A DNA stretch of 42,158 bases from Fusobacteriaceae bacterium (GTDB lineage Bacteria > Fusobacteriota > Fusobacteriia > Fusobacteriales > Fusobacteriaceae), in NCBI GenBank assembly GCA_031272775.1, contig JAISTB010000003.1, forward strand, positions 1 through 42,158. Reading direction: 5' to 3'. This document shows positions 15,557 to 19,935 of this stretch, one piece after another; the first letter of the stretch is position 1; the number at the start of each line of letters is the position of its first letter. Under the pieces are notes generated by a model. The model ran no database searches. It was not told the DNA's origin and saw only the letters and a list, made by a program, of their open reading frames with translations. The translations under genes and the position numbers were made by a program.

Positions 15557-16825
15557 ATGAATACCCGCTATCTGCCGCGCATTGCGGATGAAAAATTGAA
15601 GTTGATGCTTGCCACGTCGGGGGCGACGCTGATTGTGGGTCCCAAATGGTGCGGGAAGACCCGGACTGCCGAAGAAATGGCCAAAAGCGTTTTATATATG
15701 CAGGATCCGGATAATTCTGCGGCTTATAAGCAACTTGCCGATACAAAACCTTCAAAATTGTTGGAAGGAGACGTCCCCCGGCTTCTCGATGAATGGCAGA
15801 CGGCGCCCGTTTTGTGGAATGCCGTCCGTTTTGCCGTTGACAGACGGCGGGAACGAGGTCAATTCATCCTGACCGGATCCGTTATCCCGCCGGACTATCC
15901 GGACATGCACACGGGCACAGGCCGGATCAGCCGGATGACCATGCGGACCATGTCACTTTTTGAAACCGGAGAATCCACCGGTGGAATCTCCTTGCGGGAT
16001 CTGTTTGACGGAAAAACGGAACTGTTCGACGAGAACAAGCTGACCATCGAAAAAATCGCGTATATTCTTACCCGCGGAGGTTGGCCGGAAGCGGTTTGCG
16101 AAGAGAATGAAATTTACGCGCGGCGAATTGCATATAACTACCTGGATGCCGTGGCAAATCAAGATATGTCCGACATTGACGGCGTGGAAAGAAATCCTGT
16201 CCGGGTATACGCCCTGATGCGATCCGTCGCGAGAAATATCTCTACGCAGGCCAATACAAGCACGCTGGTGAAGGACCTCATCGCAAATGACGAAGGATTG
16301 TCGGACAAGACCGTCAACGATTATCTCGACGCGCTGAAAAAGCTTTTTGTTTTGGAGGATCTGCCCGCATGGAGTCCTCATCTTCGTTCCAAAAGAGCGA
16401 TCCGCACCACGGCGAAACGGCATTTTACAGACCCGTCCATTGCCACCGCAGCTTTAGGCGCCGATGCCAAAATGCTTTTTCAGGATTTCAACTTGTTTGG
16501 ATTGTTGTTCGAATCCTTGTGTATCCGGGATTTGCGAATCTACACGGACGCTTTGGATGGGGCCGTGTTTCATTATCGTGACCAGACCAATTTCGAAGTG
16601 GACGCGATTATACAACTGCGGGACGCCCGCTGGGCCGCTGTGGAAATCAAAATGGGCGCCGGCGCCATCGAAAAGGCGGCGGAAAATCTCTTGAAATTCA
16701 GAGATAATATCGATACGAACAAAACGCCGCCTCCTTCTTTTTTGATGGTGATGACCGGCACGCAATACGCGTTTCAAATGAAAAACGGCGTGTGGATCGT
16801 TCCCGTCGGCTGTCTTCGAAATTGA
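15557..16825 (+). CDS. AAA-type ATPase with DUF4143 C-terminal domain
   Basis: Member of the large ATP-binding protein family that combines an AAA+ core with a C-terminal DUF4143 domain (422 residues, typical length). Walker A is GPKWCGKT at 28-35, Walker B is PRLLDEW with D78-E79, and the sensor region FILTGS is near 105. The C-terminal part resembles a PD-(D/E)XK fold: FEVDAII, then AVEIKMG near residues 345-365. The biological role of the family is poorly known. Leucine codons TTG and other AT-leaning choices are more frequent than in neighbours, a sign of recent acquisition. It has its own repeat-decorated promoter and no obvious operon partner. Confidence 0.85.
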   Translation: MNTRYLPRIADEKLKLMLATSGATLIVGPKWCGKTRTAEEMAKSVLYMQDPDNSAAYKQLADTKPSKLLEGDVPRLLDEWQTAPVLWNAVRFAVDRRRERGQFILTGSVIPPDYPDMHTGTGRISRMTMRTMSLFETGESTGGISLRDLFDGKTELFDENKLTIEKIAYILTRGGWPEAVCEENEIYARRIAYNYLDAVANQDMSDIDGVERNPVRVYALMRSVARNISTQANTSTLVKDLIANDEGLSDKTVNDYLDALKKLFVLEDLPAWSPHLRSKRAIRTTAKRHFTDPSIATAALGADAKMLFQDFNLFGLLFESLCIRDLRIYTDALDGAVFHYRDQTNFEVDAIIQLRDARWAAVEIKMGAGAIEKAAENLLKFRDNIDTNKTPPPSFLMVMTGTQYAFQMKNGVWIVPVGCLRN

Positions 16826-16961
16826 CCCGGGGAGAACTGAAACAACCCCCAAAGCCGGCGCACAGGCCCGCCATTTTTCCCGATTTTATCTATCGAAAAA
16901 AACCAAAACCCTATATTATACCTCTTTTCTCTCAAAAAGTCAAAGAATTTTAAAATTTTGC

Positions 16962-16990
16962 TTGTGAATGCGGGCAAAATGCGCTATAAT
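16962..16990 (+). promoter_or_regulatory. Promoter of the SIR2-like gene
   Basis: TTGTGA (16962-16967), 17-base spacer, TATAAT (16985-16990). The TTG start of the gene lies 31 bases past the -10 box, so the leader is short. Confidence 0.65.
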
Positions 16991-17021
16991 TATTCTATAC
17001 AATGAAAAGAGGTGAATTTCT

Positions 17022-19847
17022 TTGCCGCAAAACAAATACAGTGAAAACCGAAAAAAGTTCAACTTGTTTTTGGGGGATTTTTATTGCGACCTGATCGGAG
17101 CGCCTGTTCGCGCGCGGTTGACGGAGCGGTTTCTCGACTTGCTGAAGGCCGGCGGCAGAGAGCGGGGCGACGATTATACCGAAACCGTCCGCCTGAAAAA
17201 TTCCCTTTCCGAAGTCAGCCAGACCTGGCTCGACAAGGCTCTCGGTCACAGGGCCGATATCCTTGATCTTCTGCGCGGCGACTACGCCGGGGTTCGCCTG
17301 ACAGACAAAGCCCTGCTCGACGGGATCATCTCTTCGGGCAAATTTTCCGTTATCCTGACGACCCATTATGACCGTTTTATCGAAGAGATCCGGGATTGCG
17401 GCGAGACCATTCACCGCATGGATCCCTTCCGTTTCGCGGAAGCCAAAAACGACAAGATCCGTTATTACAAACTCTTGGGCGATATTTCCTCCGAGTACGA
17501 GATCATCGTGACCGATCAGGATATCAAAAAAATGAAAAAACTGAGCTTTTACAAGGCCTTCTATGAAGCCGCCCGCAAGGAATTGCAGCTGCGTCCGACA
17601 ATATTCTGGGGCGTCAATCTCCTCGATCCCGATATGCTGGACCTGATGGACTTTCTCCTGGGGCCCGTGGAAGAGCTGAATCAGCCCATTTACCTCGTCC
17701 CCTCGGTTCCGCTGGTGAGCGGCAGCATCTTGAAGCTGATCGGCAAATACAGCATGACGCCGGTCTACGCCAAAGCCGCGGACGTCCTCGCGCACTTGGG
17801 ACCCGACGGCCTCGACAGCGCCTGGCTTTCGCGCAACACGAGGAAAATTACGCCCTTTGAAGGGGAGCTCTACGTCTTGGAGGGCTTGGAATCGGAGGCC
17901 TACGCCTGGTATTACGGCCCCAAAAAGGAGCTTGGAGACTCGGTAATTCAATATCCGGAGCAAATCGAATTCAAAGAGGAACCGCATGAAGAACAGATCG
18001 AGCCCGTCGTCAATGAATCTTCCCCTGAACCGATAACCGTAGGGGCGAATGAAGACCCCGCCGAGCCCCTGATTACCTCTGTAAATACGGATATCACCGC
18101 TATTCCCGAAGACGCCACCCTTGAGGAAATCGCGGAAATGGCGGCCGGCGCCGTTGTCGAAGAGCCTGCGGCAGAAGAGGCGACCAGCGAAGAAATTGTG
18201 GTTGCAGCCAAGGAAACCGGGACGGATGGGACCGAAGAGGCGGCAAGTGAAGGATTTGCGACTGTAACTGAAGAAGAGATCTTGGAAGAAGAGATCTTGG
18301 AAGAAGAGATAACCATAGAAGAAAAAACCGCGCCGGAGGAACCCGTGCCCGCCCCTTTGTCCCTGGATCTCCTGGCCCCGACCCTCGAGTCGGATCTGAC
18401 CCTCGAGCATATCGGCGGTTACCTCGATGAGACCGAAAACAAGGTCTTGGCGCCCGAAGTCTTCAAAGAAGAGATCGTTGTGATCGAAGGGCGCCCCGAC
18501 GCGCCGGTATTGCGCGCGGAGGCCTTTGCGGTCGGAAGTCCCGCGCCCGCAGACCTCGCGCCGGAAAATCCGGGACCGGAACCGCTGATTTCCGCGGAGA
18601 CCGCTCTGATTTCACTCGTTTCGGAAGAAGCGCCGGAAAGTGATCCGCCGATCACGCGGCTCAGCGATCTCGAAATCTATGACGGCGGCGAAGGTCCAGA
18701 CGAACCCCAGACCATAGACCTTCCCCACGCGGCGGCTGAAGCCGCGGCCCTCGCAGCGGAGACGGAAGAGCCCCTGCCGAAGACCGACGTCCCTGTGGAC
18801 GATCTGCTGCCCGAGACGAAGGAGCTCCCCAAGACCTATGAGGAAATCCTGCAACTGGCCGCGGAAAAAAAGATCATCAATATCGAGGCTTTCCAAAGGG
18901 AGCGGTATTCGGCGGAAGAATCCGCCGGACCGGAAGCGGAGGAAACGCCGCCGGAACCCCTTGTCTACCGGGAGCCCAGGACCCATATCCTCGACGGGGA
19001 CCGTTGCGGCGTCGAGACGAACCTCAGCAAAAAATACGCCTCCATGGGGCTTGTGGATTTCCGCATCGAAAGCGACAACCTGACCCAGGTCATCGACAGC
19101 AAAAAAATCGAACGGATCGGGACGGCCGATATCCAGGTGGGCGACCGGATCATCAACAGCGCCGAGCTCAGGCTCTATCTGCGTCAGAGCAACTACGACG
19201 TGCTGGAGATCAAAACGAGGGAATTCATGCTCTCCGTCGGCGTCACCCAGGCGCGGGAAGGATTTCTCACCCGCTGCGGAGATTTCTACAAATACCAGAT
19301 CTTCAGCGGGATCAAGAACACCCGTCTCGAAGATGTCCTGAAAAAGCTCCAGACCTTCTTCTCTGGCGTCCGGGTGCAGTTCTACATCCAGGATTATGTG
19401 GGCGATTTCACAAGCCGGGCCGTGGAAAGCGAGACGTACAAATTCGATCTGCTGCTGGATTTCCTGCGAAATTACTGCAAGATCACCGAAAACCTCAATT
19501 TGACCAAAGAAAAGAACATGTCGGAAATGCAAAATACATTTTACACGCTGTCGCTGCTCTCGATCCACGAGAATCTCAGCGAGGGCAAGACCTTCTCGGG
19601 CGCCGTGAGCTTCACGATCCCCACAGACGGGGAAATCGAAGCCGGAGATAGCCTGATCTTCGAAAAGATCCACACGCTCCGCTTCAAGGGGATCGGCTAT
19701 GACCTCAAGGAGACGATCGCCCTGAAAGAACCTGTGGCCCCGGAGGAAATCAGCGACGGCATCTTGAGCTGTCGGGACAGAAAAGTCGGCATTTCCCTCG
19801 CGAAGCTCGAAAAAGCCCAGGAAATGAAGCCCGCCAAAAGCGAATAG
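17022..19847 (+). CDS. Large protein with degenerate SIR2-like domain, acidic linker and novel C-terminus
   Basis: A 941-residue protein. The start is TTG at 17022 with AAAGAGGTGA upstream; a nearby ATG at 17002 is out of frame. Residues 1-300 resemble the SIR2_2 fold of defence and NADase proteins: ILTTHYDRFIEE (TTNYD motif, 113-117), YYKLLGD (149-154), IIVTDQD, and FWGVNLLDPDML (195-206, like the FIGYSLxDPD motif). The NAD-binding GAGxS is replaced by LFLGDFYCDLIGAP and the catalytic histidine of KLHGD is leucine, so it may be inactive. Residues 310-640 are acidic, low complexity and likely disordered. Residues 655-941 look folded and are not recognised (for example KTREFMLSVGVTQ, FYIQDYVGDFTSRA). 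It has its own promoter and terminator. The SIR2 relation is inferred from motif order. Confidence 0.6.
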   Translation: MPQNKYSENRKKFNLFLGDFYCDLIGAPVRARLTERFLDLLKAGGRERGDDYTETVRLKNSLSEVSQTWLDKALGHRADILDLLRGDYAGVRLTDKALLDGIISSGKFSVILTTHYDRFIEEIRDCGETIHRMDPFRFAEAKNDKIRYYKLLGDISSEYEIIVTDQDIKKMKKLSFYKAFYEAARKELQLRPTIFWGVNLLDPDMLDLMDFLLGPVEELNQPIYLVPSVPLVSGSILKLIGKYSMTPVYAKAADVLAHLGPDGLDSAWLSRNTRKITPFEGELYVLEGLESEAYAWYYGPKKELGDSVIQYPEQIEFKEEPHEEQIEPVVNESSPEPITVGANEDPAEPLITSVNTDITAIPEDATLEEIAEMAAGAVVEEPAAEEATSEEIVVAAKETGTDGTEEAASEGFATVTEEEILEEEILEEEITIEEKTAPEEPVPAPLSLDLLAPTLESDLTLEHIGGYLDETENKVLAPEVFKEEIVVIEGRPDAPVLRAEAFAVGSPAPADLAPENPGPEPLISAETALISLVSEEAPESDPPITRLSDLEIYDGGEGPDEPQTIDLPHAAAEAAALAAETEEPLPKTDVPVDDLLPETKELPKTYEEILQLAAEKKIINIEAFQRERYSAEESAGPEAEETPPEPLVYREPRTHILDGDRCGVETNLSKKYASMGLVDFRIESDNLTQVIDSKKIERIGTADIQVGDRIINSAELRLYLRQSNYDVLEIKTREFMLSVGVTQAREGFLTRCGDFYKYQIFSGIKNTRLEDVLKKLQTFFSGVRVQFYIQDYVGDFTSRAVESETYKFDLLLDFLRNYCKITENLNLTKEKNMSEMQNTFYTLSLLSIHENLSEGKTFSGAVSFTIPTDGEIEAGDSLIFEKIHTLRFKGIGYDLKETIALKEPVAPEEISDGILSCRDRKVGISLAKLEKAQEMKPAKSE
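18270..18314 (+). repeat. Three 15-bp in-frame repeats in the acidic linker
   Basis: GAAGAAGAGATCTTG at 18270-18284 and 18285-18299, then a diverged third copy at 18300-18314. They encode consecutive EEEIL units within the disordered acidic region. Because the unit is a multiple of three, copy-number change would lengthen or shorten the linker without breaking the frame. Confidence 0.8.
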
Positions 19848-19857
19848 CACGAAAACG

Positions 19858-19890
19858 CCGGTCCCTTGCAGAGAGGGGCCGGATTTATTT
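19858..19890 (+). terminator. Intrinsic terminator after the SIR2-like gene
   Basis: CCGGTCCC (19858-19865), nine-base loop, GGGGCCGG (19875-19882) with one G-U pair, followed by ATTTATTT. It lies 10 bases past the stop codon. Confidence 0.7.
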
Positions 19891-19935
19891 CCCATAAGCG
19901 GCAATTGCGGGCCGGGGGACTTTTTGCAAATTTCA

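Follow-up and report, generated by a model that had tools for sequence, protein, structure and literature searches.

What does a protein do that has kept the SIR2 fold and lost the catalytic residues that go with it? The question is raised by one gene on the forward strand of a 42,158-nucleotide stretch (here, the window) of contig JAISTB010000003.1, from a Fusobacteriaceae bacterium (assembly GCA_031272775.1). Relatives of its product are labelled 'SIR2 family protein' in databases, a name suggestive of an NADase or a deacetylase; as described below, the active site has been lost throughout the family, which speaks against that suggestion. The reading frame was uninterrupted for 941 codons from a TTG start codon, 8 nt downstream of a ribosome-binding site, and its coding status was backed by 45-59% identity to same-genus proteins across the N domain and by low dN/dS in relatives. 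Two antisense reading frames (16995-18410 and 18612-19904, minus strand) were judged to be spurious shadows of a GC-rich gene. The features of the locus are as follows:

16962-16990 (+), sigma-70-like promoter TTGTGA-17-TATAAT directly upstream of the gene, matching the consensus at 10/12 positions in a scan, which is no evidence of function
17007-17013 (+), ribosome-binding site AGAGGTG (position approximate) for the TTG at 17022, by sequence reading
17022-19847 (+), the gene, encoding a fused pseudo-SIR2 / acidic linker / orphan C-domain protein of 941 aa, by reading frame and homologues
17022-17860 (+), pseudo-SIR2 domain, approximately aa 1-280, by PF13289, the ThsA profile comparison, the fold of homologue L041 and residue counts; it holds a degenerate GAG loop, FLGDFYC (aa 16-22), TTHYD (aa 113-117), YKLLGD (aa 149-154, with L152 at the catalytic His position), Q166 and GVNLLDPD (aa 197-204)
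17937-18941 (+), acidic low-complexity linker, aa 306-640, net charge -74, by composition
18942-19814 (+), C-terminal orphan domain, approximately aa 641-931, by a C-domain HMM match (18882-19814) and AlphaFold2
19858-19882 (+), intrinsic-terminator-like hairpin 3' of the stop codon, by consensus scan; such hairpins were no more numerous than in shuffled sequence

The first 300 or so residues had been described in a preliminary account as keeping the SIR2_2 order of motifs, and TTHYD, KLLGD, VTDQD and FWGVNLLDPD are indeed all present in that sequence. Residues 110-215 scored 48.5 bits with the Pfam model PF13289 (SIR2_2), whose cut-off is 24.5, no family scored better in the profile search, and all 30 of the 30 aligned family members matched the same model at E 0.01 or better; NCBIfam models gave no match to the window protein. 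A profile of the family aligned with residues 14-229 of ThsA (E 3e-13), and PADLOC returned weak matches confined to the SIR2 stretch, the best of them to ThsA. The SIR2 fold was predicted on L041, a short-linker fused homologue that stood in for the N domain of the window protein. Its AlphaFold2 model reached a pLDDT of 89.8 and a pTM of 0.53, so each domain is modelled with confidence and their relative placement is unreliable; in Foldseek the N half retrieved KomC, ThsA and DSR2 at E ~1e-10, with KomC the best.

Loss of the GAGxS loop and replacement of the catalytic histidine by leucine, both claimed earlier for the window protein, were confirmed and proved to be general. The profile alignment, which begins at ThsA residue 14, set GAGLS of ThsA opposite G-D-F-Y-C in the window protein and G-D-F-x-x in the family profile; the loop has thus been replaced. 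Likewise, YKMHGD of ThsA lay opposite YKLLGD (His to Leu152), the family pattern being YK-x-[LFYNM]-GD. Among the 42 N domains examined, neither the catalytic His nor GAG was retained in any (0/42 each): in nearly all of them GAG had become G-[DEN]-[mostly F], and in 41 the serine of GxS had become Asp or Asn. The TTNYD motif fared better, with its Asp kept in 36/42 and its Asn in 25/42. Three residues, Q67, D71 and Q166, were invariant (42/42), the last at a position that is not Gln in ThsA. In DSR2, His171 and Asn133 are required for NADase activity, and D135, the Asp of TTNYD, contacts nicotinamide (PMC10981675). On these residue counts, neither the window protein nor any member of its family is at all likely to be a working SIR2 enzyme. 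Of the ligands suggested in the preliminary account (NAD(P), ADP-ribose derivatives or a protein), a protein is now favoured; binding of NAD or ADP-ribose is disfavoured, since the glycine loop that would bind phosphate has lost its Ser and carries Asp, Glu or Asn together with a mostly bulky residue.

The second half of the protein had been called a globular domain of no recognised family, a description that has held. AlphaFold2 modelled the C domain of the window protein with a pLDDT of 87 and a pTM of 0.78, and that protein's C domain matched nothing in Pfam or NCBIfam. When all 28 members were searched against Pfam at E 10, scattered matches appeared in one or two members and conferred no identity on the family. 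A profile search of PDB sequences found nothing, Foldseek gave no significant match in the PDB (best E 0.024, TM 0.11) or among viral models (best E 0.016, TM about 0.1), and searches of viral, phage and IMG/VR sequences yielded no relative of the protein. Judged against the PDB and viral models, the predicted domain may possibly be a new fold.

Between the two domains, the linker (aa 306-640) is 27% D+E and 4% K+R, nearly devoid of aromatic residues, and its composition bears out the acidic, flexible character first proposed for it. It does join the two halves, as proposed, but it is not peculiar to the window protein: an acidic stretch (net -11 to -40) also stands at the N-terminus of several C genes that are separate from N, and is therefore a property of the family and not a product of fusion. 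In five genera, 11 proteins have linkers that read through in frame, and the fusions are accordingly not taken for artefacts. The N proteins of split pairs share a conserved basic tail (EKKFVW, GKKLFR, EKKMYR) at their ends, which is present also where a gene overlap does not impose it (for example, L034 9544-9570 and L043 9911-9935).

The C-domain profile found its target in 52 of 61 Fusobacteriaceae genomes, in none of the 37 other Fusobacteriota genomes and, within the full set of 389, in none of the 328 outside Fusobacteriaceae. The N profile found largely the same genomes, most differences falling at contig edges or in incomplete genomes, and N and C co-occurred wherever contigs allowed; a contig search with 7 N sequences returned three loci, all from Fusobacteriaceae. 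Orthologues are carried by Ilyobacter polytropus and F. vincentii. Each genome had one C-domain copy except G022, where a contig end was duplicated: the locus is identical near both ends (L036 at 14 kb, L063 at 1.80 Mb) of the 1.8-Mb contig C1, probably an unresolved circular overlap. Second, weaker SIR2-type matches at G014:C229:72693-73385 and G080:C7:131131-131823 are likely separate SIR2 proteins. The F. vincentii record that holds the core locus L079 (NZ_CP084075.1, 2.1 Mb) is labelled plasmid pSB055A and looks like a chromosome.

In most genera N (~265-285 aa) and C (210-470 aa) are separate, adjoining genes; they are fused in g1 (the genus of the window), g2, g12 and parts of g8 and g11. 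In three genera (g6, g8 and g13), the end of the N gene and the beginning of the C gene share 7 nt (RTGGTAG), an arrangement that suggests translational coupling. Each genus clustered in the N-domain tree, over which the state changed between fused and split at least 5 times. Reading frames were intact across ~50 genomes, and dN/dS of N and C was 0.07-0.35, mostly ~0.1, as compared with 0.01-0.04 for a neighbouring synthetase gene; by these ratios the pair is under purifying selection, a pseudoenzyme that is constrained yet evolves faster. The pair is best read, from its phylogenetic pattern, as a vertically inherited, single-copy trait of Fusobacteriaceae. The G+C content was 0.556 in the window and 0.49 and 0.32 at loci of the two other genomes placed in its genus (L032 and L033), a range unusually wide for a single genus; in the rest of Fusobacteriaceae the loci had ~0.27-0.32.

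The likeness to NAD-depleting defence proteins noted at the outset had made defence genes worth seeking near homologues; none occurred among the conserved neighbours, which were housekeeping genes (cardiolipin synthase, a PHP phosphoesterase, Lon and a small alarmone synthetase). In seven genera the next gene downstream of N-C, spaced by -53 to +50 nt, encodes a RelA_SpoT protein of ~260 aa (PF04607, 73 bits; closest in the PDB to a small GTP pyrophosphokinase, E 4e-13), and the same placement was seen in F. vincentii. This synthetase is 63-83% conserved and near-universal in Fusobacteriaceae; Fusobacteria have been reported with Rel, or with Rel plus fpRel (Atkinson et al. 2011; PMC3153485). 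The link to alarmone synthesis is a purely genomic one, and it is not obligatory. In g5, g12 and g14 N-C is kept and the synthetase lies elsewhere in the genome; in g7, g10 and one g2 genome the synthetase is present and no N-C was found. The small synthetase was absent from all three genomes of g1, where detection of the long Rel indicates that the search works, so the fused protein must act there without it. Cardiolipin synthase is often upstream and divergent, frequently followed by the PHP-domain gene, with a persistence similar to that of the synthetase, and Lon precedes N in g5, g14 and one g2 genome. In the window, a divergent promoter (16915-16943, minus strand; TTGACT-17-TATAAT, 11/12 match) is directed away from the gene, to where relatives have the divergent cardiolipin synthase and the window has a DUF4143 ATPase (15557-16825, plus strand) instead. 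The cardiolipin synthase of this genome has moved to another contig, and the promoter is possibly a relic.

The reading we prefer, with a probability of roughly 0.6, is that the two domains make up a lineage-specific, vertically inherited complex of a pseudo-sirtuin and its C-domain partner, without NADase activity, that takes part in stress physiology as a scaffold or regulator. Constant pairing, coupling and repeated fusion make it very probable that N and C form a complex. In such a complex, the dead SIR2-fold N protein would bind protein and probably oligomerise as a scaffold for C, a fast-evolving, beta-rich partner domain. The acidic disordered tether would join them, within one chain in the window protein or as an N-terminal extension of the second gene in several split forms, where that gene can be translationally coupled. 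We infer contact between N and C, neither binding nor cleavage of NAD, and service in stress or growth-control physiology. The most likely mode would be to modulate alarmone synthesis or to respond to it, because in seven genera the operon has a small alarmone synthetase as its third gene; in the genus of the window the protein might act, for example, on another target or on the long Rel. A concern of the complex with alarmone control is put forward tentatively; the fuller proposal, of a stress-signalling complex dedicated to Fusobacteriaceae in which a pseudo-sirtuin scaffold and a new-fold partner control or read alarmone synthesis, is more speculative. If true, it would give the bacterial SIR2 fold a non-enzymatic role and add a new kind of alarmone regulator.

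A working NADase in defence is rejected on the family-wide loss of catalytic residues together with the core genomic context, and a mobile anti-phage role is unlikely for genes found in 52/61 genomes of one family, in single copy, with a genus-wise tree and housekeeping neighbours. The same single copy, vertical inheritance and neighbours weigh against a core-genome phage sensor or domesticated defence remnant, which would have lost its NADase and still detect infection, acting through another effector; the phage and IMG/VR searches, empty of relatives, and the PADLOC matches, weak and confined to the SIR2 stretch, tell against it further. The closest folds are nonetheless defence NADases, and the synthetase evolves much more slowly than N and C (dN/dS 0.01-0.04 against ~0.1), rapid evolution being frequent in sensors; we consider this alternative quite improbable. 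Rather unlikely, too, is a ligand sensor, in which the degenerate SIR2 pocket would bind a nucleotide (an ADP-ribose derivative, NAD(P) or an alarmone made by the operon partner) and switch the C domain. Retention of the nicotinamide-contacting Asp in most members and of the Asn in many (PMC10981675), the invariance of Q166 at its new position and the nucleotide signal made by the operon all favour such a sensor, whereas the altered GAG loop and the Asp or Asn in place of Ser would put negative charges at the would-be phosphate sites.

Two further alternatives are answered by distribution and selection. The tight same-strand operon of seven genera, in which N-C immediately precedes the synthetase, would suit a toxin-antitoxin style neutraliser of that enzyme; yet the synthetase occurs without adjoining N-C in three genera, no N-C at all was detected in g7 and g10 although they have the synthetase, N-C persists without the synthetase in every genome of the window's genus, and the conservation and near-universality of the synthetase also disagree, leaving this idea very little likelihood. 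A neutral relic, the functionless and decaying remains of a SIR2 enzyme, would explain the lost catalytic residues and is contradicted by the dN/dS values, the intact reading frames and the three invariant positions; we give it virtually no credence.

The SIR2 fold itself is well known, and loss of catalytic residues from a retained fold is a known kind of event. No description of the N-C pair was found in the open-access papers searched, nor of a pocket that is dead in the whole family and carries its own invariant residues, of the orphan partner domain or of the core-genome operon. Reading the pair as a pseudo-sirtuin complex draws attention to a conserved, uncharacterised gene pair in most Fusobacteriaceae, oral and gut Fusobacterium included, and to a C domain for which the PDB contains no detectable structural relative; it also connects a pseudo-sirtuin with alarmone metabolism in a way that can be tested.

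The closest known systems share some features with the family and differ in others. ThsA, the SIR2-SLOG NADase of Thoeris (PDB 6lhx/8bto), shares the SIR2_2-type fold and motif order, but it retains the GAG loop and catalytic His lost throughout the family and carries SLOG where the family has an unrelated C domain (no Pfam or Foldseek match); the family is also a core gene outside defence islands. KomC, the Kongming SIR2 NADase (PDB 8zsi/9xvc), is a stand-alone SIR2 protein of similar length (264 aa) with a partner, KomB, but has its catalytic His (H146); the family has lost that His and has the orphan domain as partner. DSR2 (defence-associated sirtuin 2) likewise joins an N-terminal SIR2 fold to a large C-terminal part, but needs N133 and H171; the family lacks the His, and its C domain had no Foldseek match to DSR2. 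SIR2-APAZ (SPARSA) has a second, C-terminal domain and a total size near that of the short-linker fused members, but pairs APAZ with a short Argonaute, and neither APAZ among the C-domain Foldseek matches nor Argonaute among the conserved neighbours was found. An annotated split orthologue exists in Ilyobacter polytropus, ILYOP_RS12925/RS12920 ('SIR2 family protein' and 'hypothetical protein' in RefSeq), with two genes (277 + 280 aa) and Lon upstream in place of the single fused gene of the window. For contrast, a genome from another family of the order encodes an ordinary active relative, a ThsA-like SIR2 protein (L064:1825-3231, minus strand) that retains both GAG and the catalytic His and whose C part is apparently of SLOG type.
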